Assembly: GCA_947588925.1 (NCBI GenBank)
Contig: CANQAT010000005.1
Span: 1 to 35,961, forward strand
DNA length: 35,961 bases
Direction: 5' to 3'
Source: an uncultured Bacilli bacterium
Lineage (GTDB): Bacteria; Bacillota_I; Bacilli_A; RF39; UBA660
A program made the position numbers and the translations under genes. The notes under the pieces were generated by a model that saw only the letters and a list, made by a program, of their open reading frames with translations, was not told the origin of the DNA and did no database searches. Position 1 is the first letter of the stretch; every line of letters begins with the position of its first letter. Below, in pieces: positions 7,100-34,959 of this stretch.

Positions 7100-7352
7100 A
7101 AACTAATATAATTTTTTTATTATTATTAATATTTGTATCTCTTATGATAAGATCTTCCATATATAAACTAGATGTCTCAGGATCAAATATATAATGGGAT
7201 TTATCTACATCAAAGCTAAAATCGGATAATTCGTAAACAGATTTAACTATTAGCTCTATAATTTTTTTAACACTTTCATTAGTTGGAATATATATTTCAT
7301 ATTCCTCATCTATATTTGGAACATAAACTTTAACCAATACTTTATTCTTCAT
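7098..7352 (-). CDS. esaB: EsaB/YukD-like ubiquitin-fold protein
   Basis: An 84-residue protein with the beta-grasp pattern of EsaB/YukD: KVLVKVYVPNIDEEYEIYIP, then a helix (SVKKIIELIVKSVYEL), then FDPETSSLYMEDLIIRDTNINNNKKIILV. EsaB is a conserved cytoplasmic component of T7SSb that regulates or assists secretion. The ATG at 7352 is preferred because GGAGAAAGGG precedes it; an upstream TTG in the same frame would leave no ribosome site. It overlaps the 3' end of essC by 11 bases, so translation is probably coupled. Usual T7SSb order places esaB before essC; here it follows. Family call is by fold pattern and context. Confidence 0.7.
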   Translation of the reverse strand: MKNKVLVKVYVPNIDEEYEIYIPTNESVKKIIELIVKSVYELSDFSFDVDKSHYIFDPETSSLYMEDLIIRDTNINNNKKIILV

Positions 7353-10300
7353 CTTCTTTTTCCCTTTCTCCAACTATTTTAATCAAATCTGCTTCTCCGT
7401 TTTTAGCAACCCATGCATATTGTTTATCTATTTGTTCTTTGAACTTATTTCCATAATCGTTACAATTTATAACGGTTTGTTCCATAAATCCATTTCCTAC
7501 CCAAATACCGTTTGAATTATTTGTAACACTAGAATACCAATTCTCAAACCCAACTTTTTTGAGTTTAAAGCTTGAATCTACAAATACTAAATTTACATTA
7601 TCAAGTGTTTTAATTCCTTTAAAGAAGCCATTGAATTTCTTTTCATTCATACTTCCTTGGAATTTTTCAAGTCCTGCAATTATACATAGTACTTTAATAT
7701 CTTTTCCATCTATTTGTGCGTCTAAGAACTCTTCAAATTTAAGTATAAATTCTTCAAAGTTTTTATCTGCATAAGTATTTACACTTCCACCTATACTAGA
7801 TAATTCTTGTTCTGTATCTATAAGCACAACCATATGTCCTAGTTTTCTTACACCATATATAATAGTTTTAAGTAGATCCATTGTATTTTTTACATCTTTA
7901 GAGCTTATAATAGTTGCTTTATCATTAAAGAAATTATAGAAAGATGTTTTTAAGTTTCTCTTGCTTATACCTACCGGCAAATTATTTATATTAGTTATAT
8001 CTTTATCAAGCATTTCTATAGTGACTTCTTCTGGTAGTACTGGAATCTTAGGAGCTTTAGTATTACAAGTTTTAGATACTTCCGCAATTTTAGCCTTAAC
8101 AAATTCAACTAAGTTATCTGGATTACATACTTGTGCGGTTTGAAATTCATATACTTCATCAGCCCTAAACAAACCTCTTCCATCATATTCTGCAGGATAT
8201 ACATTTCCTATCTTTCCTAATATGTCCACATAATCGCTTTTATCTGGCATATCAAGTACGAAAGTATGGTGGAAATTACGCTCTACTTTACTATAGATAC
8301 TACGTGAGCTAGTCGCACTTATTACAAAAATTATACCGTATCTCTCACCCTCACGAGTAAGCTTAATTAATGTATCTTCTAAGGCAGAATAGCTTTCTTT
8401 AAAGCTATCGTAATTATTAAATATAATGAGTTTTAAAGGTACTTTTTGTCCACTATTTTTAATATAGTTTTTATATTCACCATTAAAGTCTGCAAATAGT
8501 TTCTTTCTATAACTAATCTCATCTGAAATAAGTGAGATTAATTTAAGTAACTTATCTTTTTCAGATGAATAAACTATATCTCCAACTTGTGGGAATCTAT
8601 CATATACCCTTAATGACTCAGATCCAAAATCTATTATATAGATATTTATATCTTCTGGAGTGTATACTACCGATAGTGAATATATGAGAGTTGATATGAA
8701 CATCTCTCTATTAGTTCCTGATGAGCCGTATACTAAGGTATTACCCTCATCATTTAGTGTAAGTGTTAATATATCTTGATATTGTTTTGATGGTGCGTCA
8801 TACTCACCTATTAAAGCCGTAACTGTATCTTTTTTAGTAAAGTTATACTTTTTAAATATATCATCTACATATATATCTTTAGGAATACTATCTAGCCATA
8901 AATTCTTAGCTTTTAAATTTTCTTTTTTAGCTAGTGCGCATATATATTTCATTATATTAGATAATTCATCCCCGTTATCCTCTGTCGCGACTACCTCTTT
9001 AATATCTTCTAAATTCTTTATTACATTTCCTGTATTATCTATAAATGATATAGATCTATCATAATTTTTCTTAACAGAGTCCGTTGCTTGGTATTGCACT
9101 CCAGCATATCCTGATTGACCTAATACAAATATCTCATCATTACCAACTTGTAAGTAAAATCTACCTGCATTAGTAATATCTGCAGCGTCAGGGCGTTTTA
9201 ACATTTCATTAGAATCTGATCTATCTTGTACTTTTAAACAAACTCTAAACTTAGTATTTGACCATATTTGATCATTGACAACCCCGCTAGGTTTTTGTGT
9301 TGCAAGTATTAGGTGTACCCCAAGTGAACGACCAATTCTTGCAGCAGAGATTAAATCATCCATAAACTCAGGTTGTTGCGCTTTCAACTCTGCAAATTCA
9401 TCACTTATAATAAATAAGTGTGGCATAGGTTCATCTATTTTACCTTCTCTAAAGAATTTTTGATATTTATATATATCTATAGTACTCTCACCTAATTTAT
9501 CTCTTACTTCATTGAATACTTTTTGTCTTCTTTTAAGCTCACTATCTATACTTACTAGTGTTCTATTTAAAGAGGCTTTATCTAGGTTAGTTATAGTTCC
9601 TGCTAAATGAGGAAGTCTATATCCTAAAGTTTTATTTTCAAATGCCCCAGCAAGTCCTCCACCTTTATAATCGATAAGTATAAAGGCAACCTCGTTTGGA
9701 CTATAGTTTATTACCATAGAAAGTATATAAGTAATGATAAATTCTGATTTACCACTTCCTGTAGTTCCAGCGATTAATCCGTGTGGCCCATGGAATTTCT
9801 CATGTAAATCAAGATAGATTGGATTTGCTTCATCATTTATACCAACCTGAGCTCTTAGAGTTTTTATAGGATTATTGAGTCTCCACCTATTTAGTGAGTT
9901 TAGCTGCTCTACTTTACCTACGTTATACATCTCCAAAAATCCTAAAGAAGTTGGTAGATTTCTTAAATCTTCAGTAAATTCTATTGGAATATTTGCAAGT
10001 GTTTTAATACACTTTTCCATATTTAAGTTTGTATTTATTTCTTTTGTAAATGTTTGTTGGAAGTAATTGTTGATATCTGTTGATAGTATCGCAGAAGTAC
10101 CTTCTACAGATATAAAATTAACACACTCACTTGGAAGTTTACCAAGCCTATTTTCTATACATATTATACTAAAGCCAAAATTCTCTTTGTTTTTTAATAT
10201 TTTATCTACGATACCAACCTTTCTTATCATAGGATAATCATCAGTTATTATCAAATAATATGGCAAGTATGTAGCTTCTTGTTCTTTATCTTCGTTTTCA

Positions 10301-11916
10301 ACAACTTCGCTTTGTTTACTAGCTCTAACTATATATTCCTGCTCTAGATATGAGCTAATATATTTAATATCTTCTATATCTGTTGCAAAAAATCTCATCT
10401 GTTTATTATTAGTAAATGTGTGAGGAGCTTCTTTATATTTATCCCATGTACTTAAGTTGTTTTTACTTACAAAAAATATTATTTTTAAATCATCATAACT
10501 ATGAAATGTAAGTAATTGTAAAAGTAAATTATCTACAAATGGGAATATTTCACTATTATTACCCATTATAGCAGTTACTTTTTTATTGTAAAATGAGTAG
10601 CCAACTGGTACATTTTCAAGTACTTTAGATTCATTTACAACTTTTTTAGCTTCATATTTTAATTCATCTTCTTCCATTTTAAAGTCTTCATCAGTAAAGT
10701 TAACATTTATTTTTAAAGGTACTTTACCGGTTCCAACCCTAACTGTTAAGAAGTCTTGCTGATCTGTTCTTCTTTCCCATAAAGTTCTTTTTTTATTTAA
10801 TATGATATTTTGACATTCATCTACTGTTATTAAGTTTTCTTTTAATATAGAGGCTTGATCTATAGCAACATTATATATTTCTTTTTTCTTTTTCTCTAAA
10901 TACTCTCTATATAATTTTTTTCTTTCTTTCTCTTTTTTCTTTTCTAATTTTTTCTGATATCTTCTAGTTAGACTTGGCCAAAGCATTGAAGATAGTAGCA
11001 TAGCTCCAGTTGTTATAAGTGTAGGAATAGACTGACTTAATGACTGTTGACCTTGCATAATACGAGCAACTACATTAACAAGTGATATTACAGATATAAC
11101 AGCCATTGTAAGCATAGGTCCGAGTGTTAAAATTAAAGGCATTTCTTGTTTTTCTTGCTTTTGAGGTGGTTGGGTAAGAGCTAAATCATAACTTTCAATA
11201 AATCTCCTCATTCTTGGCTTTTTAAAGAAGTAATCTTGATCACTATAATAATCTATTTCTTTTATTTGATCACTCTCTAATACATTAGTTTTTGCTAATT
11301 CACTATATGAAAACTCAAACTCAGTTAATTTATTATTAGTGTATGTGACAAAATTAGAAGGATTATTTATAGAAATCATGCCTTTATAAAGAGTAATTTT
11401 AAGGCCAAGTACAAATAATTTATCCCCATAGTTTAATTTTTTATCATAATTTAATAATAATGAATCATTAATGTATACGTTTGATGTTTTAGTAATTTTA
11501 ATACTCCAACCATCAGAATTATAAGTCAATATAAGATAATTATTAGTGATATACGAATTTTCATATATTATATCTTGAGTTGTGTCTTTCCCTATAGATA
11601 TACTAGTATTTTCATTTACTTTATAATATTTTACTGTGTTATCTAAAATATTTTCAGAATAAAGTAACATTTTTTTGCCATTGTAATCTAAAAAATAGAA
11701 ATAATTGTGCATAATTTCTACACTAGATGTATAAGAATTACCGTAAATTATCTTAGTATCATCGTTTTCTTTCATTATCCATTTGCCATTAACTGCTTCT
11801 ATATTTACTATATTATTATTGTTATTTAACTCATCTGTAAGCCAAAAACTTCCCTCTATTTTATTAGGAAGTACTAATTTAGATAATCTATTTCCATTAA
11901 ATAATATAAGTCTCAT
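7342..11916 (-). CDS. essC: EssC, T7SSb translocase ATPase
   Basis: A 1524-residue FtsK/SpoIIIE-type membrane ATPase, the motor and substrate selector of type VIIb secretion. Visible domains: FHA-like beta region around residues 100-160 (SISIGKD.., NVYIND); two membrane helices about 258-280 and 295-316; a Lys/Glu-rich helix; then tandem ATPase domains. D1 carries a clear Walker A (GTTGSGKSEF, near 718) and Walker B (FILIDYKGGGLAG, near 745). D2 (YGSSGTNREM, near 1060; IYIIDFGSE) and D3 (IISSKDVKN, near 1330) lack a proper GKS/GKT, as expected for regulatory modules. Full-length S. aureus EssC is of similar size. It starts ATG, about 100 bases after module 2, and overlaps esaB. Confidence 0.93.
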   Translation of the reverse strand: MRLILFNGNRLSKLVLPNKIEGSFWLTDELNNNNNIVNIEAVNGKWIMKENDDTKIIYGNSYTSSVEIMHNYFYFLDYNGKKMLLYSENILDNTVKYYKVNENTSISIGKDTTQDIIYENSYITNNYLILTYNSDGWSIKITKTSNVYINDSLLLNYDKKLNYGDKLFVLGLKITLYKGMISINNPSNFVTYTNNKLTEFEFSYSELAKTNVLESDQIKEIDYYSDQDYFFKKPRMRRFIESYDLALTQPPQKQEKQEMPLILTLGPMLTMAVISVISLVNVVARIMQGQQSLSQSIPTLITTGAMLLSSMLWPSLTRRYQKKLEKKKEKERKKLYREYLEKKKKEIYNVAIDQASILKENLITVDECQNIILNKKRTLWERRTDQQDFLTVRVGTGKVPLKINVNFTDEDFKMEEDELKYEAKKVVNESKVLENVPVGYSFYNKKVTAIMGNNSEIFPFVDNLLLQLLTFHSYDDLKIIFFVSKNNLSTWDKYKEAPHTFTNNKQMRFFATDIEDIKYISSYLEQEYIVRASKQSEVVENEDKEQEATYLPYYLIITDDYPMIRKVGIVDKILKNKENFGFSIICIENRLGKLPSECVNFISVEGTSAILSTDINNYFQQTFTKEINTNLNMEKCIKTLANIPIEFTEDLRNLPTSLGFLEMYNVGKVEQLNSLNRWRLNNPIKTLRAQVGINDEANPIYLDLHEKFHGPHGLIAGTTGSGKSEFIITYILSMVINYSPNEVAFILIDYKGGGLAGAFENKTLGYRLPHLAGTITNLDKASLNRTLVSIDSELKRRQKVFNEVRDKLGESTIDIYKYQKFFREGKIDEPMPHLFIISDEFAELKAQQPEFMDDLISAARIGRSLGVHLILATQKPSGVVNDQIWSNTKFRVCLKVQDRSDSNEMLKRPDAADITNAGRFYLQVGNDEIFVLGQSGYAGVQYQATDSVKKNYDRSISFIDNTGNVIKNLEDIKEVVATEDNGDELSNIMKYICALAKKENLKAKNLWLDSIPKDIYVDDIFKKYNFTKKDTVTALIGEYDAPSKQYQDILTLTLNDEGNTLVYGSSGTNREMFISTLIYSLSVVYTPEDINIYIIDFGSESLRVYDRFPQVGDIVYSSEKDKLLKLISLISDEISYRKKLFADFNGEYKNYIKNSGQKVPLKLIIFNNYDSFKESYSALEDTLIKLTREGERYGIIFVISATSSRSIYSKVERNFHHTFVLDMPDKSDYVDILGKIGNVYPAEYDGRGLFRADEVYEFQTAQVCNPDNLVEFVKAKIAEVSKTCNTKAPKIPVLPEEVTIEMLDKDITNINNLPVGISKRNLKTSFYNFFNDKATIISSKDVKNTMDLLKTIIYGVRKLGHMVVLIDTEQELSSIGGSVNTYADKNFEEFILKFEEFLDAQIDGKDIKVLCIIAGLEKFQGSMNEKKFNGFFKGIKTLDNVNLVFVDSSFKLKKVGFENWYSSVTNNSNGIWVGNGFMEQTVINCNDYGNKFKEQIDKQYAWVAKNGEADLIKIVGEREKEDEE

Positions 11917-23754: not shown

Positions 23755-24825
23755 ATGGATAATGAAAATACTTTAGATAAAGCAAAAAAATACATAGAAG
23801 AGTTTAATAGAAGATATCCAAATAATCACAACTGTTTTTATATAGGTCCAACTGGGCCAACGGGTCCAAGGGGTGAAAATGCATTAAGTATAGAGCTTGG
23901 CGATGTATCTTTTGTACCTGAAGAAAAAGACGCAAAAATCATTAACTCCGGAACTGAGAATGATTTAGTATTAGATTTCTTTATACCTTATGGTCCAACT
24001 GGGCCAAAAGGCGAACAAGGAATTCAAGGACCTACTGGACCAGTTGGTTTAAAGGGTGATAAAGGAGAAAAAGGCGCAGATGGTACTAGTGTGACTATAC
24101 TTGGAAATTATAAAACTTATGAAGAGCTTGTAAACAACCATCCAAGCGGAAATCCGGGTAATTCTTATTTAGTAGATACTGATTTATATGTGTGGTCTGA
24201 AGAAACTAAAAAATGGATAAATGTAGGAACTATTAAAGGTCCTAAAGGAGATAAAGGTGAGACTGGAAAAACTGGTCCAAAGGGTGATGTTGGACCTCAG
24301 GGTGAGAAAGGTCCAAAGGGAGATCCTGGAACACTCGATATTCCTGTTGCTTTCTTTTTAACAACTTCTAAGGATTTGCAAAATAATCCTTTGGTATTAC
24401 AACCTCAAGACAATCTTCCACTTAAACTTATGACTATCGATACTGATTCTAATTATTATTTAAACACAACCAATAACACAATAATATTTTATAATGCAGG
24501 ACTTTATAAAATAGAATTTTCTGCTTCTGTTCGTACTAATTCACAGGAAAGTGGGAAAAATGATTCTAATGTGATTTCACTTGGATTTAAAAAGGTCGGT
24601 GAAGATCCAGTATATATAGGGACATCCACTTGGGGAAATCCAACAACCCCTACTCTAGTTACTGGACATGGTATTTTAGATTTTAAATCTAGTAAGATGT
24701 GGTGCCAAATAACAAATCTAAGTAAAGTGCCTATTGTTTTAGAAAGTCCTTCTGTAAATTCACTTAGTACAAATTATTCTTTAGTAAGTCCTGTTGTAAC
24801 ACTTCTAATTGAAAGATTAAAATAG
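23755..24825 (+). CDS. Collagen-like surface/exosporium-type protein
   Basis: A 356-residue protein with three Gly-X-Y tracts: residues about 31-42 (GPTGPTGPRG), 80-111 and 162-193 (GPKGDKGETGKTGPKGDVGP). Between them lie compact modules (SIELGDVSFV..., ending in LDFFIP; and TSVTILGNYKTYEELVNNHP, ending in KKWINVG) that recur in bacterial collagen-like proteins. Residues about 196-356 form a beta-rich C-terminal domain resembling the trimerising C1q/TNF-like heads of BclA-type proteins. There is no classical signal peptide or LPXTG anchor, as in BclA-like proteins targeted by an N-terminal segment. It probably forms a trimer on the cell or spore surface. A phage-fibre origin is unlikely because no phage genes are near. 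Confidence 0.8.
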   Translation: MDNENTLDKAKKYIEEFNRRYPNNHNCFYIGPTGPTGPRGENALSIELGDVSFVPEEKDAKIINSGTENDLVLDFFIPYGPTGPKGEQGIQGPTGPVGLKGDKGEKGADGTSVTILGNYKTYEELVNNHPSGNPGNSYLVDTDLYVWSEETKKWINVGTIKGPKGDKGETGKTGPKGDVGPQGEKGPKGDPGTLDIPVAFFLTTSKDLQNNPLVLQPQDNLPLKLMTIDTDSNYYLNTTNNTIIFYNAGLYKIEFSASVRTNSQESGKNDSNVISLGFKKVGEDPVYIGTSTWGNPTTPTLVTGHGILDFKSSKMWCQITNLSKVPIVLESPSVNSLSTNYSLVSPVVTLLIERLK

Positions 24826-24918: not shown

Positions 24919-24947
24919 TTGATATATAAATATATGGTTGGTATAAT
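24919..24947 (+). promoter_or_regulatory. Promoter of the 25-aa hydrophobic peptide gene
   Basis: TTGATA (24919-24924), exactly 17 bases, TATAAT (24942-24947). This near-consensus promoter should give a transcript starting about 24954, roughly 85 bases before the small ORF. Confidence 0.75.
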
Positions 24948-24980
24948 GTTAATGGATACATTTGAAAAATATCGAATGCT

Positions 24981-25030
24981 TACCCTTTCTTAATAAAACA
25001 CACCTTGATAAGCTACTTTAAGAAAGGTGG
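24981..25030 (+). promoter_or_regulatory. Hairpin sequestering a Shine-Dalgarno sequence
   Basis: CTTTCTTAA (24985-24993) pairs with TTAAGAAAG (25018-25026), which covers the AAAGG of the ribosome site (AAAGGTGGTGA) of the 25-aa ORF. A second choice is CACCTT (25001-25006) with AAGGTG. Hidden ribosome sites are typical of type I toxin mRNAs. Confidence 0.55.
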
Positions 25031-25037
25031 TGATATT

Positions 25038-25115
25038 ATGACTAAAAGAGAAAATTCTCAATTTGTTATTATATTACTTCTACTTGCTATAATATTTATA
25101 TTACTAGTCAAATAG
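25038..25115 (+). CDS. 25-aa hydrophobic peptide, candidate type I toxin
   Basis: MTKRENSQ followed by FVIILLLLAIIFILLVK: a short charged start and one membrane-spanning helix of ~16 residues ending in Lys. It has a strong ribosome site (AAGGTGGTGA) inside a hairpin, its own near-consensus promoter, a long leader, and a structured 3' end with a terminator. This is the layout of small membrane toxins controlled by antisense RNA (Ldr, TxpA, Bsr types), though the sequence matches none I remember. No convincing antisense promoter is visible: a minus-strand TATAAT at about 25206-25211 lacks a good -35. A small regulatory membrane peptide is the alternative. Confidence 0.6.
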   Translation: MTKRENSQFVIILLLLAIIFILLVK

Positions 25116-25121
25116 ACAAAA

Positions 25122-25155
25122 GCATTTGATTTCAACAACAGTTGATTTCAAATGC
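25122..25155 (+). ncRNA. Structured 3' UTR hairpin of the small peptide mRNA
   Basis: GCATTTGA, TT, TCAAC, AACA, GTTGA, TT, TCAAATGC: an 8-bp stem, a symmetric 2x2 internal loop, a 5-bp stem and a tetraloop, beginning 6 bases after the stop codon. It shares the CATTTGA/TCAAATG arm with the terminators on either side (24841 and 25168), so alternative pairing among them is possible. Confidence 0.5.
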
Positions 25156-25167
25156 ACTCTCATAAAG

Positions 25168-25205
25168 GGAAGCATTTGACTCTGGAATCAAATGTATCCT
25201 TTTTT
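25168..25205 (+). terminator. Terminator of the small peptide transcript
   Basis: CATTTGA (25173-25179) and TCAAATG (25188-25194) with flanking GGA/TCC, followed by six Ts. The 120 bases after it (25206-25324) hold no ORF that I can support. Confidence 0.75.
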
Positions 25206-25324
25206 ATTATATGCAAGTTCCCTTGACATATTTAATATACCATAAAAATGATTTTATTGCAATTCTTTTTATGCAAACTAACACTATTTTTAAGAAAATT
25301 CTATAATAAATATTGATAAGTTGT

Positions 25325-25359: not shown

Positions 25360-25519
25360 ACATTGAGTAATTATTAGATGGTTGCATTGTGAAGATTTTT
25401 TTGAGGAACATATTAGTCAACCAAAATTCACATCAAGGATAGCATTGTGAAGAATTTATTTCGATGGACATATTAGACTATCTATGATTAATGGAAATTC
25501 TATACAGAGTTTCCTTTTT
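25360..25519 (+). ncRNA. Candidate ~160-nt RNA with two tandem structured motifs
   Basis: Between a good promoter and a strong terminator (GGAAATTCT/AGAGTTTCC, then TTTTT) lie two related units, 25380-25422 and 25438-25482, offset by 58 bases. Both contain CATTGTGAAGA near the start and ACATATTAG near the end. Each is closed by a 5-bp stem whose sequence differs but still pairs: GGTTG/CAACC in the first, GATAG/CTATC in the second. Two of five pairs changed on both sides, which argues for a conserved RNA fold. A weak CATTG...TATTAG echo at 25361-25377 may be a decayed third unit. No class I know fits. A type III antitoxin array, a regulatory sRNA or a leader for the downstream gene are all possible. 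Confidence 0.6.
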
Positions 25520-25573
25520 ACTTTATAAAATACTACTTTAATAACACTCTTTAAACATTTTAAATAAAATGTG

Positions 25574-25582
25574 TGCTATAAT
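25574..25582 (+). promoter_or_regulatory. Extended -10 promoter of the deoxyribosyltransferase-like gene
   Basis: TGCTATAAT, followed by a leader (TTTGTAAGTATGAATTGGAG) nearly identical to that of the next gene (26072-26107). The -35 region is weak. Confidence 0.6.
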
Positions 25583-25610
25583 ATTTGTAAGTATGAATTG
25601 GAGGAAAAGT

Positions 25611-26051
25611 ATGCAATATGATTTTTTTATAGCCGGAAGAGCACGAAACAAAGATAACATTTTAAAGATATGTAATTTGTTAGACAAGTATAACATATCT
25701 TACTATTGTTTTTTAAAAAACGAAGAAAATTGGGGATATGGCAATAGTAATCAAACTCCAGAAGAAAGACAAAAAGAATTTGAAGCCTTAGATTTAAAAA
25801 GTGATATCGTTTTAAATTTGTTCAAACAAGATATTGAAGGAGAAAAAGCTTCTAAAAATTTATTGCTTGTTTTACCTGCAGGCAAGGCAGCTCATATAGA
25901 AGCAGGAATTGCTTATGGTATGGGCAAAAAATGCTATGCTATAGGTGAATTTGATACAACAGATACTTTATACAATATTTTTGATAAAATCTTTAAAAAC
26001 GAAACTGAACTAGAAAATTTTTTTAAAACATATATTAAAGGCAATATATAA
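25611..26051 (+). CDS. Nucleoside 2-deoxyribosyltransferase-like protein
   Basis: A 146-residue protein with the Rossmann-like fold of nucleoside 2-deoxyribosyltransferases and their relatives. The strand YDFFIAGRAR opens it; DIVLNLF and LLLVLPAGKAAHIEAGIAYG (residues about 84-103) correspond to the D.v.v...p.G...E.G.A segment with the likely catalytic Glu97. MGKKCYAIGEF follows. Family enzymes break or exchange the N-glycosidic bond of deoxynucleosides, or hydrolyse nucleoside monophosphates. The real start is the ATG at 25611 with TTGGAGGAAAAG upstream, not the in-frame ATG at 25593. It lies 57 bases before the HD-kinase gene with a matching promoter-leader, suggesting shared control. The exact substrate is unknown. 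Confidence 0.7.
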   Translation: MQYDFFIAGRARNKDNILKICNLLDKYNISYYCFLKNEENWGYGNSNQTPEERQKEFEALDLKSDIVLNLFKQDIEGEKASKNLLLVLPAGKAAHIEAGIAYGMGKKCYAIGEFDTTDTLYNIFDKIFKNETELENFFKTYIKGNI

Positions 26052-26071
26052 AATTATGTCTAATATATACT

Positions 26072-26080
26072 TGCTATAAT
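26072..26080 (+). promoter_or_regulatory. Extended -10 promoter of the HD-kinase gene
   Basis: TGCTATAAT with the leader GTTTATAAGTATGAATGGAG before the ATG, a near-copy of the leader at 25574-25610. The duplication suggests the two genes answer to the same signal. Confidence 0.6.
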
Positions 26081-26107
26081 GTTTATAAGTATGAATGGAG
26101 GAAGAAT

Positions 26108-27445
26108 ATGGATATTAAAGAAAAAGCAAAAGAATTTACTATAAAAGCTCATATGGGGCAAGTTAGAAAAAATGAAACTGATAAACCTATGATAATGCAC
26201 CCACTTAAAGTTGGACAACTTTTAGAGTCATATGGGTATGATGACAATGTCGTTGTTGCTGCTTATTTACACGATGTTGTAGAAGATACAAAATATACTA
26301 TCGAAGATATTGAAAAAGAATTTGGTAATGATATAGCCTCTCTTGTAATGGATGCATCAGAGCCTGATAAATCATTATCTTGGGAAGAAAGGAAAAAGCA
26401 CACCATAGAAAATACTAAAACATTACCTCTTAGAAATAAACTAATAATATGCGCTGATAAAATAGATAACTTAGAAGATTTATTTTTAAAATTTGAAAAA
26501 ACTGGTAAAAGAGATTTTAGTGCTTTTAAAAGAGGAGAAGAATCTCAAAAATGGTACTATACAAATATTTATGAAAGTTTAATAAATGGTATAGATGAAG
26601 ACCTTCCTATATTTAAAAGATTAAAAGAACTATTAGACAAAGTATTTTATAAGAGTGAAGATACTTTTTTAAAGGATGTTATATTTGATAATAACCAAGA
26701 CTACTATTTAAAACTTAGGAAGTTACACGCTCAAAAACTAGAATTACAAAAACTTAAATCTTTAATCACACCATCTAAACCATTTGTTATAGAATTTACA
26801 GGTACACCTAGAACTGGCAAAACAACTACGATAAATAATTTATACGATTTCTTTAAAAAAGGTGGATTCGATGTATCTATAATAGAAGAATTTACAACTT
26901 CTAAGAATTATAAAAAGATGATAAAAAATGAATTAAAAGACATGGATGTTTCTGATAGAAATTTAGAAATAATTAAATTAGTACATGAACAATTACAAAA
27001 GGCTTTAGAAGATAAAAAAGATATAATTATAATTGATAGGTCTTTAAATGATAGACAGATATGGAATTATAGATGTTTACTAAAAAAAGATATGCCTGAG
27101 GATTTATATTTAGAGGCTAAGAAAAAATATTCAAAGATTTCAAAAGAATTAATTAATTTTTTAGTTATTACTTATGCTGATTCTTTAACCTCTTTAAAAC
27201 GCGATTATAATTCTAGTTTAGCACTTGAAAAAAGAAATTTCTTAAATTTAGAGAATATAGATGAGTATAACAAAAGCCTAAATGACTTAAAAGACTTATT
27301 TAAAGAAAGTGTAGATTCAATGATTTTATTAGACACTTCAAATATTAGTATGAATGATATTTCTATAGAAGTTGCGTCTGAAATTTTACCTGCTATTAGA
27401 AAAACTTACATTAAAGAATTTAAACAAAAATATAATTTAAAATAA
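26108..27445 (+). CDS. HD hydrolase fused to a P-loop nucleotide kinase-like domain
   Basis: A 445-residue two-domain protein. Residues 1-165 form an HD domain of the RelA/SpoT (Mesh1-like) hydrolase type: MHPLKVGQLL (His31), YLHDVVEDT (His55-Asp56, Glu59-Asp60) and CADKIDNL (Asp117). These bind the metal used to cleave (p)ppGpp or related nucleotides. Residues about 222-445 form a P-loop kinase-like domain: FVIEFTGTPRTGKTTTINNL (Walker A, 232-239), DIIIIDRSLNDRQIWNYR (the DR motif of nucleoside and nucleotide kinases) and a lid-like helical region. The fusion is one I do not know with a named function. It may couple nucleotide removal and phosphorylation. Start ATG follows GGAGGAAGA. It is followed by its own terminator. 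Confidence 0.75.
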   Translation: MDIKEKAKEFTIKAHMGQVRKNETDKPMIMHPLKVGQLLESYGYDDNVVVAAYLHDVVEDTKYTIEDIEKEFGNDIASLVMDASEPDKSLSWEERKKHTIENTKTLPLRNKLIICADKIDNLEDLFLKFEKTGKRDFSAFKRGEESQKWYYTNIYESLINGIDEDLPIFKRLKELLDKVFYKSEDTFLKDVIFDNNQDYYLKLRKLHAQKLELQKLKSLITPSKPFVIEFTGTPRTGKTTTINNLYDFFKKGGFDVSIIEEFTTSKNYKKMIKNELKDMDVSDRNLEIIKLVHEQLQKALEDKKDIIIIDRSLNDRQIWNYRCLLKKDMPEDLYLEAKKKYSKISKELINFLVITYADSLTSLKRDYNSSLALEKRNFLNLENIDEYNKSLNDLKDLFKESVDSMILLDTSNISMNDISIEVASEILPAIRKTYIKEFKQKYNLK

Positions 27446-30219: not shown

Positions 30220-30504
30220 ATGTTAGATGTAATTGAAGATGTAAGAAATGAATTTAAAGTTAAATTAACAGACAAATTTGAAGAAGAAGTCATATCATTT
30301 TTGAATACTAATGGTGGTAATATTTATATTGGTGTTAATGATAAAGGTGACATTGTAGGCATAAATGGTAATATTGATTTATTACAAAGAACTATTAAAG
30401 ATAGAATAAAAGATAATATAATGCCATCTACATTAGGACTATATGATGTCGTTGTATTAGAAGAAAACAATAAAAAATATATTAAAATAATTTCTATTTT
30501 ATGA
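30220..30504 (+). pseudogene. Truncated AlbA_2 (schlafen-like) protein
   Basis: A 94-residue product with only the first part of an AlbA_2/Schlafen domain: EFKVKLTDKFEEEVISFLNTNGGNIYIGVNDKGDIVGI, then DNIMPSTLGLYDVVVLEENNKKYIKIIS, where it stops. Complete members continue for another 30 residues in this domain and usually several hundred beyond. It has an intact start with AGGAGG and a promoter, so a short protein may still be made. I favour a remnant, but a deliberate short regulator cannot be excluded. The next gene is unrelated to AlbA_2 C-terminal parts. Confidence 0.65.
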
Positions 30505-30552
30505 TATAATTATTATGTAGTTATGAGCGTCTACAAGTGAGGATGTGATTTT

Positions 30553-31164
30553 ATGGACGATAATAAAGCTTTAGAAATGAGATTAGAGGATGAACCATTT
30601 TTAAATTCAAAACCGTATTTTGGGCAAAATTTAATTGGCTTACATAATAGAGGAATTTATACTTTAAATGATTTTATTACTATGGATTTAAAGTCAATAC
30701 CTGATAAAGTAACTAGAAATACATTTTTTAGAATGATTGATATTTTGAGGTGTAAATATTTTGGAGAGGATTTAGTATGTGATGTTTTACTTAAAAGCCA
30801 TCTAAATCCAATTGAAGAAGATTTTAAAAAAGATTGTTCAAAATTAGGAATACCTTTTATAAGAAGAGTATATAGAGGACTTTTTCGATCAAATATAGAT
30901 AGATCTAATTTAACTATGAAAGATTATTTGAACGATTATGATGTTAGAAATAGTCGTTCAAAAAATTTAGTAGATTTTTATTTAGAGTATATTAAAATTA
31001 AAGAAGATAAAAAAGATGATACAATAACATCACCAGAATTAGAAGCATTAAAAAAACAATTATCAAGTTTAACTAGTCAAAGAGATGATTTGGATAAGCA
31101 AATTCAAGATATTAAGGTTAAAATTCAATTAATGAGTGAGGGTAAAAATAATGCAAGAAAATAA
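30553..31164 (+). CDS. Protein with helix-hairpin-helix-like start and coiled-coil end (unrecognised)
   Basis: A 203-residue protein. Residues about 25-65 (LIGLHNRGIYTLNDFITMDL...) read like the helix-hairpin-helix of an RNA polymerase alpha C-terminal-type domain. The middle is helical and basic. Residues about 165-195 form a coiled coil (LEALKKQLSSLTSQRDDLDKQ). ATG follows GAGGATG; a TGATATAAT box upstream (around 30503-30511) may be its promoter. It overlaps the 43-aa coiled-coil gene by 14 bases, so the two are probably partners. I do not recognise the family. Confidence 0.6.
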   Translation: MDDNKALEMRLEDEPFLNSKPYFGQNLIGLHNRGIYTLNDFITMDLKSIPDKVTRNTFFRMIDILRCKYFGEDLVCDVLLKSHLNPIEEDFKKDCSKLGIPFIRRVYRGLFRSNIDRSNLTMKDYLNDYDVRNSRSKNLVDFYLEYIKIKEDKKDDTITSPELEALKKQLSSLTSQRDDLDKQIQDIKVKIQLMSEGKNNARK

Positions 31165-31282
31165 TAGTATAGAAGATATAAAAAAATATATAGAAAATTT
31201 AAAAAATGAAATACTGGAAAAACAAAATGAATTAAATGAATTAATTAGTATTTTAAATAACGAAAATGATTTTAATGAATAA
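31151..31282 (+). CDS. 43-aa coiled-coil protein
   Basis: A short acidic helix (SIEDIKKYIENLKNEILEKQ, then NELNELISIL) with leucine/isoleucine heptads. ATG at 31151 has GAGGG 8 bases upstream, inside the end of the preceding gene with a 14-base overlap. Both products end in or consist of coiled coil, so they may bind each other. It is followed at once by a strong terminator. Confidence 0.6.
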   Translation: MQENNSIEDIKKYIENLKNEILEKQNELNELISILNNENDFNE

Positions 31283-31291
31283 TCATTTTTT

Positions 31292-31328
31292 CACACGCAT
31301 ATTGGCTGTCAATATGCGTGTGTGTTTT
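31292..31328 (+). terminator. Strong terminator after the coiled-coil gene pair
   Basis: CACACGCATATTG (31292-31304) and CAATATGCGTGTG (31310-31322), a 13-bp perfect stem with a 5-base loop, followed by TGTTTT. Confidence 0.85.
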
Positions 31329-31344
31329 CTAAATTGACAAAAAT

Positions 31345-31381
31345 AAAACTACTCTCAATTTAAATTTAAGAGTAGTTTTTT
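31345..31381. terminator. Second terminator-like hairpin
   Basis: AAAACTACTCT (31345-31355) and AGAGTAGTTTT (31369-31379), 11 bp with a 13-base loop, T-rich on the plus side and A-rich on the other, so it can act in either direction. Confidence 0.65.
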
Positions 31382-31387
31382 ATATAT

Positions 31388-31453
31388 ACTCGAAGAATTT
31401 TCCGAGTTTCCTATCAATCTGGAGCGATTGTGGAAGATATCTACAACTTTCAC
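31388..31453 (+). other. Dispersed element copy 2: hairpin, CAATCTGGAGCGAT, hairpin
   Basis: ACTCG/CGAGT near-perfect palindrome (31388-31407), then CAATCTGGAGCGAT (31415-31428), then GTGGAAG...CTTTCAC, which can pair. Same order as the copy at 29894-29956 although the flanking stems differ in sequence. The two copies bracket 30220-31282. Confidence 0.5.
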
Positions 31454-31550
31454 TCATAACGTTTCGATATATAAAATATCAACCATTAATGATATTCTAT
31501 CATAAATTTAGAAAATAATAAATAAAAAATTAATAATGTAGCAATCTTGA

Positions 31551-31579
31551 TTGACAAGTGCTAATAATAATGTTATATT
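31551..31579 (+). promoter_or_regulatory. Promoter of a ~107-nt candidate sRNA
   Basis: TTGACA (31551-31556), exactly 17 bases, TATATT (31574-31579). Strong match; the start would be near 31586. Confidence 0.7.
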
Positions 31580-31585
31580 TGATGT

Positions 31586-31692
31586 GGTAAAAATTCAAAA
31601 GACTCTTGTCTTAAAAGGATGTGAATTGTAGTTTTAATATAAATTGCAGTAAAAAATAAAACCTTACAGAGATTGGAGTCTGTAAGGTTTTT
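31586..31692 (+). ncRNA. Candidate small RNA
   Basis: About 107 nt between a good promoter and the terminator AAAACCTTACAG/CTGTAAGGTTTT (31658-31691). No ORF with a ribosome site fits: the AAAGGATG at 31616 opens a frame that stops at once. Internal features are AAGAC/GTCTT around TCTT (31600-31613) and the pair AATTGTAG and AATTGCAG. The remaining bases to 31875 contain an additional GTTGTAA/TTACAAC hairpin (31696-31716) and a TATAAT near 31779. Confidence 0.5.
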
Positions 31693-31875
31693 ATCGTTGT
31701 AATTGGCAGTTACAACAATCATTTAACACAAGCACAGATAAGCAAATAAAGAACTATTTGATTGACTTGCTCTTTATTATAATAACATAATTATTAAATA
31801 AAAAATCAAGAATTTGTATATACTTTATTCCTATCTGTGTAAAACCGAACAATTATAAATGAAAGGAATGATAGT

Positions 31876-32007
31876 ATGGCAAAGAAAACTACGAGTTTAA
31901 AAGTAGCAAAAAAAGCATCAAAAGTACTTCGTGATGGAAGAACATCTAAGACAAATAAAAGTATTGCTGGAAGCGCTTTATCACAAAGAGAAAAGAAAAA
32001 AAGATAA
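31876..32007 (+). CDS. 43-aa very basic small protein
   Basis: MAKKTTSLKVAKKASKVLRD, then GRTSKTNKSIAGSALSQREK and KKR: about one third Lys/Arg. Small proteins with the pattern A..A...L.D.R.SK..KS.AGSALSQ are familiar to me as widespread unannotated ORFs in accessory regions, but I know no function. ATG follows AAAGGAATGAT. It lies 66 bases before the nuclease-like gene and may belong with it. Nucleic-acid binding is a guess from charge. Confidence 0.65.
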   Translation: MAKKTTSLKVAKKASKVLRDGRTSKTNKSIAGSALSQREKKKR

Positions 32008-32073
32008 TAAATTAAAAATATAAACAAAATGGTTGTTGTAACTCCTTAAAAGTTTTATAAGGAGGAAATAAAA

Positions 32074-32913
32074 ATGGTAAGAAAAATTAGTACATCGCAA
32101 TTAAAAAGTCAGTTGAGAAGATTGGAAAGTAAGCAAAGAACTGCAATAAACAACTATAATAGAGCAGTGAGAAATTATAATACGCAAGTAAGAAGATTTA
32201 ATACTGAGTTAAGAAGAAATAAGCAAAAAATAAAAAGTGAATTAAATAAGCTTAATTATAATTTAAGAAATACTACGACTTATTCTATTAGTGTTAGAAA
32301 CTTAAATACGAGTTATCAAAGAGTCACTGATAATTATGAAAGTTTGTCAAGTGTAAATGCAAAGCAGGAACAATTATACGATTTAATAGAACAAGAAAAT
32401 GCTAATAACTTAGTTGTTGCAAATACCCTTGAAAATCCACAAGATGATACTGAAATTGAAGTTTCATTAAATGATTCAATTATTGGCGATAAATTAAATG
32501 TATTGTCTCCTGATTTGAATGATCGTTGGACTGGTGCATTGTTTTCTTTGAATCCAAAAAATCCTGATGCTACAAGGCACTTTTGTACGAGTTCAAGAGA
32601 GATATTTACAGATATATTTGATAATTATGCTCAAGATGAAGAAGTTTTTAATATGTTTCCTAATTGTGATAAAACAGAACGAGGAAATGCTACTAGAAGA
32701 TGGAAAATTAAATATTTTCTTAAAAAGAAAGGCATTGAATTAGAAGGTGCTGAAGAATTTATAGATAATGATATTGAGAATATATTAGAACTTTACCACA
32801 TTTTAAGTGATGGAACACATGGGAATGCAGGACGATACACATTTATCCAATTAAAAGCCATTAAAAAACGAGTTGAAGATGGAATCTTATTTCTATGTAA
32901 TATAGTTGTTTAA
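32074..32913 (+). CDS. Coiled-coil protein with predicted pPIWI-associated nuclease-like domain
   Basis: A 279-residue protein. Residues 1-110 are a strongly basic helix/coiled coil (QLKSQLRRLESKQRTAINNY...). Residues about 145-279 carry the pattern RWTGALFSLNPKNPDATRHF, then CTSSREIF, TRRWKIKYFL and SDGTHGNAG, then IKKRVEDGI. This resembles a widespread domain annotated as a predicted pPIWI-associating nuclease, linked to prokaryotic Argonaute/PIWI-RE defence. No Argonaute is in the window. Conserved Arg/His/Glu residues are visible but a catalytic set cannot be proven. ATG follows AAGGAGG. It stands upstream of the restriction-modification genes, consistent with a defence role. Confidence 0.5.
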   Translation: MVRKISTSQLKSQLRRLESKQRTAINNYNRAVRNYNTQVRRFNTELRRNKQKIKSELNKLNYNLRNTTTYSISVRNLNTSYQRVTDNYESLSSVNAKQEQLYDLIEQENANNLVVANTLENPQDDTEIEVSLNDSIIGDKLNVLSPDLNDRWTGALFSLNPKNPDATRHFCTSSREIFTDIFDNYAQDEEVFNMFPNCDKTERGNATRRWKIKYFLKKKGIELEGAEEFIDNDIENILELYHILSDGTHGNAGRYTFIQLKAIKKRVEDGILFLCNIVV

Positions 32914-33013
32914 TACTAACGAGAATATAAATACATCGGAATTTTTAATATTTTATGATATAATATAATACGTGTAAAAAAATTTATATATCAACATACA
33001 AGGAGGTGTAATG

Positions 33014-33997
33014 ATGAATATAGTTTCTTTATTTAGTGGAGCTGGTGGACTTGATTTGGGTTTTGAAAAAGCTGGATTTAAGACAATTTGGGCTAATGAA
33101 TTTGATCCTAAAATTTGGGAAACTTTTGAAACTAATTTTCCAAATACGGTATTAGACAGAAGAAGCATTGTTAAGATAAAAGCAGAAGAAATTCCAGACG
33201 CTGATGGTATCATAGGTGGACCACCATGTCAAAGTTGGTCGGAAGCTGGTGCTGGTAGAGGAATAAATGATTCTAGAGGTAAATTATTTTATGATTATAT
33301 AAGAATTCTTAAAATTAAGAAACCTAAATTCTTTTTAGTAGAAAATGTCCCAGGTATATTAAACCCTAAACATAAAGAAGCGTTTGATGGATTTATTAAA
33401 GCGTTTACTGATGCTGGTTATAATGTGAATTATCAATTAGTTAATGCAAACGATTTTGATGTACCAGAAGATAGAAGCCGTGTAATAATTGTTGGATTTA
33501 GAAAAGATTTAAATAAAAAATTTGTTTTCCCAAAACCAAGAAATAAAAAACTTACATTGAAAGATGCAATTTCTGATTTAGGAGAGCCATTACCTGCTAA
33601 AGAAAAAAATAAAACAAATGGAGATAAATTAAGTTTTCCAAATCATGAATATTTTATAGGTAGTTATTCAACCATTTATATGTCTAGAAATAGAGTAAGA
33701 AGTTGGGATGAACCATCATTTACAATTCAAGCAGGAGCCAGACATGCTCCAATTCATCCAAAAGCACCGAAAATGCAATTTATATCTCAAAATAAGAGAA
33801 TATTTGTACCTGGAAAAGAAGATTTATATAGAAGACTAAGTGTACGTGAATGTGCTAGAATACAAACATTCCCTGATAGTTACATTTTTAAATATAATGA
33901 TTTAACTGATGCATATAAAATGATAGGAAATGCTGTACCTGTTAATCTAGCTTATTACATTGCACTAAAGATAAAGGAGGATTTATGCCAAGATTAA
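33014..33997 (+). CDS. DNA cytosine-5 methyltransferase, M.HaeIII-like
   Basis: A 327-residue m5C methyltransferase. Motif I is [12 protein letters not shown]; motif [18 protein letters not shown] carries the catalytic Cys; motif VI is FFLVENV; motif VIII is [13 protein letters not shown]; motif IX is [15 protein letters not shown]; motif X is [11 protein letters not shown]. The target-recognition region ([20 protein letters not shown], then [13 protein letters not shown]) matches what I remember of M.HaeIII, which methylates GGCC; that specificity is therefore predicted. The ATG at 33014 is used because it matches the M.HaeIII start and lies 7 bases after AGGAGG. It overlaps the endonuclease gene by 13 bases and protects host DNA from it. 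Confidence 0.92.
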
Positions 33998-34959
33998 TAA
34001 CAGACCATTCTACTGTAAATGGAAAAGCTTATGAATATGCCTGTGTTCTTTCTATTCAGGATATAGTATCAAAATATAGAAAGATAAAAATTGTAGAAAA
34101 TTCAAGTATGAAAATAGCAAGGGAAAGATTCAATAGCATTCCTGAAAGTGAAAGAAATACTATGATAAAATCTGCAAGTGCAGGTATAAATGCAATCTTA
34201 ACTATGGAACCAAGAATAGTAGAAGATGGTTCTGATGAATTAGAAATATCATTACAATCTGATGATGCTGGAATTGCTGGAGATGTGAGAGATGTATTAG
34301 TTATTAGAAAATCTATTGATTGGGAAATTGGAATTTCAGTAAAACATAATCATTATGCATTGAAACATTCTAGATTATCAATGGATTTAGATTTTGGAAA
34401 AAAATGGTTTAATATTCCATGCTCTCAAGAATATTTTAATGAAATAAAACCATATTTTGAAGAATTAAAAGAATTAAGACGCAAAAATGTAATGTGGCGT
34501 GATATTGAGAACAAAGATGAAAGATTTTATGTTCCTATATTAAATGCATTTATGAAAGAATTAAATAATAAATATAAAGAATATGATTCAGAAGTTACTA
34601 AAAAAATGATAAGTTACCTGTTAGGTATTAACGATTTTTACAAATTAATTGGTATTGATTCTCAAAGAATTACTAGAATTATACCATTCAATATATATGG
34701 TACATTAAATCAATCGTCTCTTTCTAATAAGCCACTACAAGAAGTACAAATATTAGAGTTACCAACCCGTATTGTTGAGTTAGATTTTAAAAAAGATTCT
34801 AAGACAACATTAGAGTTAATAATGGATAATGGTTGGCAAATATCATTTAGAATTCATAATGCAAGTAGTAAAGTTGAACCTAGTTTAAAATTTGATGTAC
34901 AACTAGTAGGACAACCAACTGCATTGTTTGTAATTGATATGCCTTGGGATAATTATTAA
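33985..34959 (+). CDS. HaeIII-family restriction endonuclease
   Basis: A 324-residue endonuclease following and overlapping the M.HaeIII-like gene, with AAAGGAGG before its ATG. The likely PD-(D/E)XK-type core is [11 protein letters not shown], then [20 protein letters not shown] (residues about 100-135), where Asp, Glu and Lys form the metal site; this block is typical of the RE_HaeIII family. It should cut unmethylated GGCC, giving a complete type II restriction-modification pair. Length is close to R.HaeIII. The gene looks intact. A separate control (C) protein gene is not visible. Confidence 0.85.

Follow-up and report, generated by a model that had tools for sequence, protein, structure and literature searches.

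Gene content of the locus

The window analysed here, a stretch of 35,961 nucleotides, is an entire contig (G000:C5). The genome it belongs to is low in GC and 1.28 Mb in size, and has uncultured gut Bacilli as its relatives, among them several rabbit 'Lapin' MAGs. The analysis concerned two neighbouring genes, each with a promoter-leader of its own. P0001 (25611..26051, +) encodes a 146-aa protein with a remote likeness to nucleoside 2'-deoxyribosyltransferases; the automatic open reading frame call begins at 25569, which is too early, and the start was taken as the ATG at 25611, directly after GGAGGA. P0002 (26108..27445, +) encodes a 445-aa fusion resembling a small alarmone hydrolase (SAH) joined to a deoxynucleoside kinase (dNK), with an HD domain of the SAH/RelH-Mesh1 fold (aa 1-184; 26108..26659, +) and a kinase domain of the dNK/thymidylate kinase (TMPK) fold (aa 222-437; 26771..27418, +). 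As the host genome already encodes a long Rel separately and has tmk as a gene separate from P0002, P0002 is regarded as accessory. The gene nrdD is located on the same contig.

The structured RNA and the toxin-like peptide that the first-pass annotation placed next to the two genes both exist, but they are independent elements, separate from the gene pair. The peptide belongs to a type I toxin-like cassette (24920-25240, +), in which 25040-25117 encodes the 25-aa hydrophobic MTKRENSQFVIILLLLAIIFILLVK, the ribosome-binding site is paired to the upstream CCUUUCUU and two hairpins are located at the 3' end (fold z -7.3). Copies of this cassette occur genus-wide, in most genomes and several per genome, with the peptide conserved; a stretch of about 40 nt at its 3' end (25186-25228) has dozens of matching sites spread through the genus and is possibly a dispersed repeat. 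The RNA (25370-25514, +) consists of two tandem units of about 46 nt (GCAUUGUGAAG...GAKGRACAUAUUAG) followed by a terminator. Elements of this type were also seen at L283 1511-1602 and in L284, the closing stems of the units varying in a compensatory manner (GGUUG/CAACC, GAUUG/CAAUC, GAUAG/CUAUC), and the element is absent at this locus from two sister genomes, G014 and G012. In G019 the same RNA element is followed by a ribosome-binding site and a gene for a 127-aa protein of the PemK/MazF fold (PF02452, E 1e-8), the arrangement seen in type III toxin-antitoxin loci. No PemK/MazF-fold toxin follows the element in the window or in G015, where it therefore looks, by analogy, like an orphan RNA antitoxin.

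Further features of the window include a collagen-like protein with Gly-Pro-Thr repeats (23755-24825, +), encoded next to the locus and also present at the sister loci of G014 and G012, and a 1524-aa FtsK/SpoIIIE-like protein (7342-11916, -) amid small minus-strand genes, which is possibly an EssC-like ATPase of type VII secretion. A defence-type cluster at 30220-34959 contains a truncated Schlafen/AlbA gene, a predicted pPIWI-associated nuclease (PF18165) and a C5 methylase with a HaeIII-type endonuclease.

Paired promoter-leaders

Both genes were found behind near-identical leaders, as had been described from the initial reading of the sequence. The first leader (25574..25610, +) comprises the extended -10 TGCTATAAT, then TTTGTAAGTATGAATT and the ribosome-binding site GGAGGA; the second (26072..26107, +) reads TGCTATAATGTTTATAAGTATGAATGGAGGAAGAAT, and the layout shared ahead of P0001 and P0002 is TGCTATAAT-RTTTRTAAGTATGAAT-(T)GGAGGA. 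The 25-nt cores, TGCTATAATATTTGTAAGTATGAAT at 25574-25598 (then TGGAGGA) and TGCTATAATGTTTATAAGTATGAAT at 26072-26096 (then GGAGGA), are identical at 23 of 25 positions, differing at two. No match at three or fewer mismatches arose in 100 shuffles of the window, and at the same tolerance no third copy was detected in the 1.28-Mb genome, leaving two copies in total. Rfam gave no match at gathering score, and in the leader region its matches were at chance level only.

Comparison with the sister genomes was informative as to the origin of the repeat. G014 keeps the leader pair, its second copy being one mismatch away from the pattern. In G012, whose copy of P0002 is 96% identical and is frameshifted close to the 3' end, the upstream flank of the first leader leads into a single hybrid leader and directly on to P0002, so that P0001 is missing exactly between the leader repeats. 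The leader repeat is thus the boundary of the gain or loss of P0001, and its duplication looks like the footprint of such an event, in either direction: either P0001 came to lie between the paired leaders in this lineage, or recombination between them removed it from the sister.

It was also considered that the duplication might constitute a functional two-gene regulon, with the conserved TTTRTAAGTATGAAT stretch acting as an operator or 5'UTR element on both genes. Such a role would agree with the near-identity of the two cores, with the retention of the leaders in G014 and of the single leader in G012, and with the finding that AAGTAT does not directly precede GGAGG in any of the 183 other genes that have this site. 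However, the copies are confined to species of one genus and are too young to tell conservation from recent duplication, the leader is absent from P0001 paralogues and from all other fusion genes, and genes in these genomes often start with an extended -10, a short leader and GGAGG (20 cases). A regulon is accordingly considered unlikely, and the shared leader is read as a lineage-specific duplication footprint rather than an established regulatory unit.

A near-identical promoter-leader (GGTATAATTAGATTACAAGAATCAGGAGGTAAAA) also marks the start of the AlbA_2/Schlafen gene 2.8 kb downstream in the window (30220-30504, +), where the gene is truncated to 94 aa. Gene starts of the same type were observed just upstream of the fusion in L088 (8004-9308) and L089 (7859-9307).

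P0001 is a possible remote deoxyribosyltransferase relative

The first product had been assigned to a family that cuts or exchanges nucleoside bases. A remote link of this kind was recovered, P0001 matching phrog_12607 (E 6e-7), but PF05014 matched neither P0001 nor any other protein of this genome. Besides proteins that contain the motif LPAGRGAHIELGMA, a profile built from the P0001 family retrieved one PF05014-positive protein (E 3e-5), and Glu97, located in PAGKAAHIEAG, corresponds to the catalytic-Glu motif of the deoxyribosyltransferases. A structure model made without an alignment (pLDDT 61) gave no Foldseek match at E<0.001. P0001 may thus be a distant deoxyribosyltransferase relative, an assignment made tentatively from these profile and motif matches.

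A paralogue of P0001, 89% identical, was found in the same genome (G000:C6:13268-13696), where it adjoins mnmA. Other homologues, which have different leaders, either adjoin mnmA or are flanked by ffh/ftsY on one side and a Fic-family gene on the other. No relative of P0001 was detected in viral contigs or in phage and plasmid records.

P0002 joins an alarmone hydrolase-like HD domain to a nucleotide kinase fold

Alarmone hydrolases are known as single-domain proteins or as domains within long Rel/SpoT proteins. The proposal that the second product fuses a SpoT/Mesh1-type HD hydrolase to a nucleoside- or nucleotide-kinase-like domain was confirmed by Pfam, by PDB sequence search and by an AlphaFold2 model built from a 62-sequence alignment (mean pLDDT 93.8). 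For the HD half, Pfam reported HD_4 (E 1.2e-18), and the nearest sequence was Lmo0812 (43% identity), found in the PDB sequence search with E 7.5e-38 from the single sequence and 1.9e-49 with a profile. In the model, residues 1-184 superpose on RelH of C. glutamicum with Z 24.9 (2.0 A over 180 residues), and on Leptospira SAH and Mesh1 with Z 23.6 and 22.7, respectively. All 62 sequences keep the residues of the HD diad, of HDxxED and of the downstream metal-binding Asp (H31, H55, D56, E59, D60 and D117) unchanged. The HD half has the whole-domain SpoT/Mesh1-type HD fold of SAHs; being fused to the kinase and not a single-domain protein, it is a domain-level relative of SAH rather than SAH sensu stricto. 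Its nearest solved relatives belong to the RelH/MixSpo group of alarmone hydrolases (PMC10434055), and (pp)pGpp is a substrate of the characterised relatives RelH and Tde-SAH, which hydrolyse it (PMC5954133, PMC10434055).

For the kinase half, Pfam reported AAA_28 (E 1.7e-6). Residues 222-437 superpose on TMPK with Z 17.9, and deoxyadenosine kinase 8puu was matched both by hmmsearch (E 4e-5) and by Foldseek (2e-5). The P-loop NMP-kinase-type fold, Walker A, the (D/E)RS-DR motif, the lid Arg and an acidic residue, which together characterise the dNK/TMPK superfamily, are all present: Walker A is GTPRTGKT at 232-239, followed by E261, by DRS..DR..W at 310-319 and by the lid R365-D366-Y367. The P-loop, E261, R311, D315, R316, W319 and R365 are kept in at least 61 of 62 sequences, and E261 would, from its position, be the acidic general base. 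PF02223 scored below threshold on the kinase half (15.1 bits against a cut-off of 27), and PF01712, the dNK family model, gave no match in this genome. Since the motif residues of hydrolase and kinase are invariant or nearly so, both active sites look intact.

Long and short forms of the fusion

In about 30 of 79 relatives the protein is extended in frame at its N terminus by some 205 residues, which form a second HD domain (PF01966). Four further relatives retain only pieces of the extension, as seen with tblastn, and others only its last codons or ribosome-binding site. The long form is scattered on the tree and requires several changes; the tree was a quick one and supports repeated change only. 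The N-terminal HD domain appears to have been lost repeatedly. The second leader of the window, TAAGTATGAATGGAGG, is similar to TAAGTATATGGAGG, the trace left by the lost HD domain in L086 and other relatives, and a weaker idea suggested by this resemblance is that the leader may descend from such a trace.

Homologues of the HD-HD-kinase type, 650 aa in length and with an in-frame GGAGG, include L067, L071, L073-L076, L084, L085, L088-L094 and others. In the linker (M/L)EVN, 24 of 27 long-form sequences encode Glu by GAG, as against 16% of Glu codons in these fusion genes, and this GAG yields GGAGG 16 nt ahead of the short-form start ATG. The nominal binomial p of this bias is 2e-16, the sequences being related and hence not independent. 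Frame-broken, truncated relatives (e.g., L083 and L087) retain GGAGG in the same position. The conserved GGAGG is therefore a candidate internal ribosome-binding site from which the two-domain product would be made.

The fusion is a patchily distributed, wandering single gene

The full-length fusion was found in 11 of 98 sampled relatives, every one of them in the window's own family, to which kinase-half matches were also confined in a class-wide sample. A GTDB contig set yielded 80 fusion loci, labelled uncultured Bacillota or bacteria. Viral contigs encoded no fusion, their profile scan giving HD-domain matches only, and no phage or plasmid record covered 80% of it. Among uncultured gut Bacilli the fusion, an unusual combination of domains, has a patchy occurrence.

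The neighbourhoods of the fusion are not conserved. Besides the fusion itself, the commonest neighbouring family was that of ABC transporters, at 18 of 81 loci, the next families reaching 10. The sole recurrent upstream family was the uracil-DNA-glycosylase (UDG) superfamily (8 of 97 upstream neighbours, mostly in one clade). In L136 (9321-14474) an ung-like gene 2 nt upstream, the HD-kinase fusion, nrdD and nrdG form a same-strand run, which is a DNA-precursor context for the fusion. PADLOC applied to the 97 upstream neighbours gave scattered matches, 1-3 per model, with no defence enrichment by inspection. The fusion is a wandering single gene.

P0001 and P0002 do not form an established module

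The first-pass annotation had read the two genes as a co-regulated nucleotide-sensing or nucleotide-depleting module with a likeness to anti-phage systems, and had named two outcomes of a neighbourhood analysis that would count against this: that the genes do not co-occur elsewhere, or that the fusion maps to routine nucleoside-salvage operons. The first was observed. The only places where P0001 adjoins P0002 are the window and G014, whose P0002 is 97% identical; this sister is the one locus in 80 at which a fusion elsewhere is accompanied by P0001, and in G012 the gene is absent from between the leaders. Across 98 genomes the two genes share three, a marginal association (hypergeometric p 0.018) that disappears within the genus (p 0.24). 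As for the second outcome, the fusion is not tied to a fixed nucleoside-salvage operon across the approximately 80 loci.

An anti-phage nucleotide-depletion module, in which P0001 would hydrolyse or exchange nucleoside bases and P0002 would turn over alarmones or trap nucleotides, both co-induced on infection from the duplicated promoters, could draw on the leader common to the two genes and on the HaeIII-type restriction-modification genes, the predicted pPIWI-associated nuclease and the Schlafen/AlbA gene located 2.8-7.5 kb downstream. However, the genes do not co-occur beyond one sister genome, P0001 adjoins housekeeping genes elsewhere, the PADLOC models match neither protein, the neighbours of the fusion yielded only the scattered matches described above, and the fusion was not phage-borne in the records scanned. 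Such a module is considered very improbable. The two genes do not constitute an established anti-phage module; P0001 is an unrelated gene and the pairing a local arrangement, which, though recent, could have been selected.

Predicted role of P0002

Our preferred reading, to which a probability of about 0.62 is given, is that P0002 is a bifunctional nucleotide enzyme encoded by a stand-alone accessory gene and acting in host nucleotide and alarmone metabolism, with P0001 unrelated and the leader duplication a lineage footprint. The N-terminal domain, a Mn-type HD SAH, is predicted to remove the 3'-pyrophosphate from (p)ppGpp, (p)ppApp or a similar 3'-phosphorylated nucleotide, and the C-terminal P-loop kinase of dNK/TMPK fold to phosphorylate a (deoxy)nucleoside or nucleoside monophosphate at the expense of ATP. 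From these domain assignments we infer activities, substrates and a physiological role that probably belongs to nucleotide/alarmone metabolism; P0002 might, for example, clear alarmones and restore (deoxy)nucleotide salvage in its host. A more specific version, offered tentatively as a possibility, is that an undescribed HD-(SAH HD)-dNK family of uncultured gut Bacilli couples clearance of alarmones or 3'-phosphonucleotides to (deoxy)nucleoside phosphorylation within a single chain, one gene supplying both a form that includes the first HD domain and a form that lacks it, via the conserved in-frame Shine-Dalgarno sequence.

A role for P0002 as an antitoxin, in which the SAH would neutralise a toxic alarmone synthetase, was rejected: the only RelA/SpoT synthetase found in the window genome is the long Rel, so there is no cognate toxin candidate.

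Against the preferred reading, SAH-type HD domains may favour other substrates, NADPH for Mesh1 and ppApp for SAHMex (PMC10434055). In an alternative reading, the HD half could act on a non-alarmone nucleotide (NADPH, PAP/PAPS or a modified dNTP) whose product the kinase recycles, in a pool-sanitising function linked to DNA precursors. Mesh1 structures with NADPH and PAPS bound (5vxa, 9chy) were among the structural matches, the fusion adjoins UDG-superfamily genes and in L136 is located between the ung-like gene and nrdD/nrdG, nrdD is present on the window's own contig, and the host already has a long Rel. The UDG linkage, however, is largely that of one clade, and the closest solved HD relatives are the RelH/MixSpo alarmone hydrolases (PMC10434055). 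On balance this function is judged possible but rather doubtful.

HD-Pnk proteins are end-healing enzymes that combine an HD phosphoesterase (2',3'-phosphoesterase) with a 5'-OH polynucleotide kinase, and P0002 might heal nucleic-acid ends in the same way. The domain types occur in the same order, HD and then P-loop kinase, and no family is met more often upstream of the fusion than that of UDG. Against this, the HD half is specifically RelH/Mesh1-like, the kinase half is specifically dNK/TMPK-like with its DRS..DR..W motif, and no adjoining ligase family was seen among the recurrent neighbours; end-healing is accordingly held to be improbable.

Read as a bifunctional nucleotide enzyme, the HD-dNK fusion would offer direct evidence, from genomes, that alarmone removal is tied to DNA-precursor salvage in some bacteria, a link that becomes testable with one purified protein. 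Furthermore, showing the two-gene module to be a local arrangement averts a false defence-system annotation.

Comparison with known systems

P0002 is a new domain architecture built from a known kind of enzyme. With the RelH/MixSpo SAHs (Lmo0812, 4yf1; C. glutamicum RelH, 7qoc; L. levettii RelH, 7qoe) it shares the whole HD fold, a helical C-terminal extension and all hydrolase-motif residues, at 27-43% identity. These SAHs are single-domain proteins, whereas the HD domain of P0002 is fused to a kinase and its relatives often have a further HD domain; the RSH superfamily survey likewise places alarmone hydrolases either in single-domain proteins or within long Rel/SpoT (PMC3153485). With the dNK/TMPK fold (8puu, dCK, TMPK), the kinase half has in common the fold, the P-loop, the DRS..DR motif and the lid Arg, but differs in a P-loop of GTPRTGKT rather than the usual form, in an identity of 12-20% and in being fused to an HD domain. 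P0001 shares AGxxxHIEaGxAxxxGKK, with its catalytic Glu, with the nucleoside 2'-deoxyribosyltransferase superfamily (PF05014, phrog_12607), and unlike PF05014 members falls below the detection of that model. HD-Pnk, as generally described, likewise carries an HD domain and a P-loop kinase on one chain, whereas the HD and kinase subfamilies appear to be different from those of P0002.
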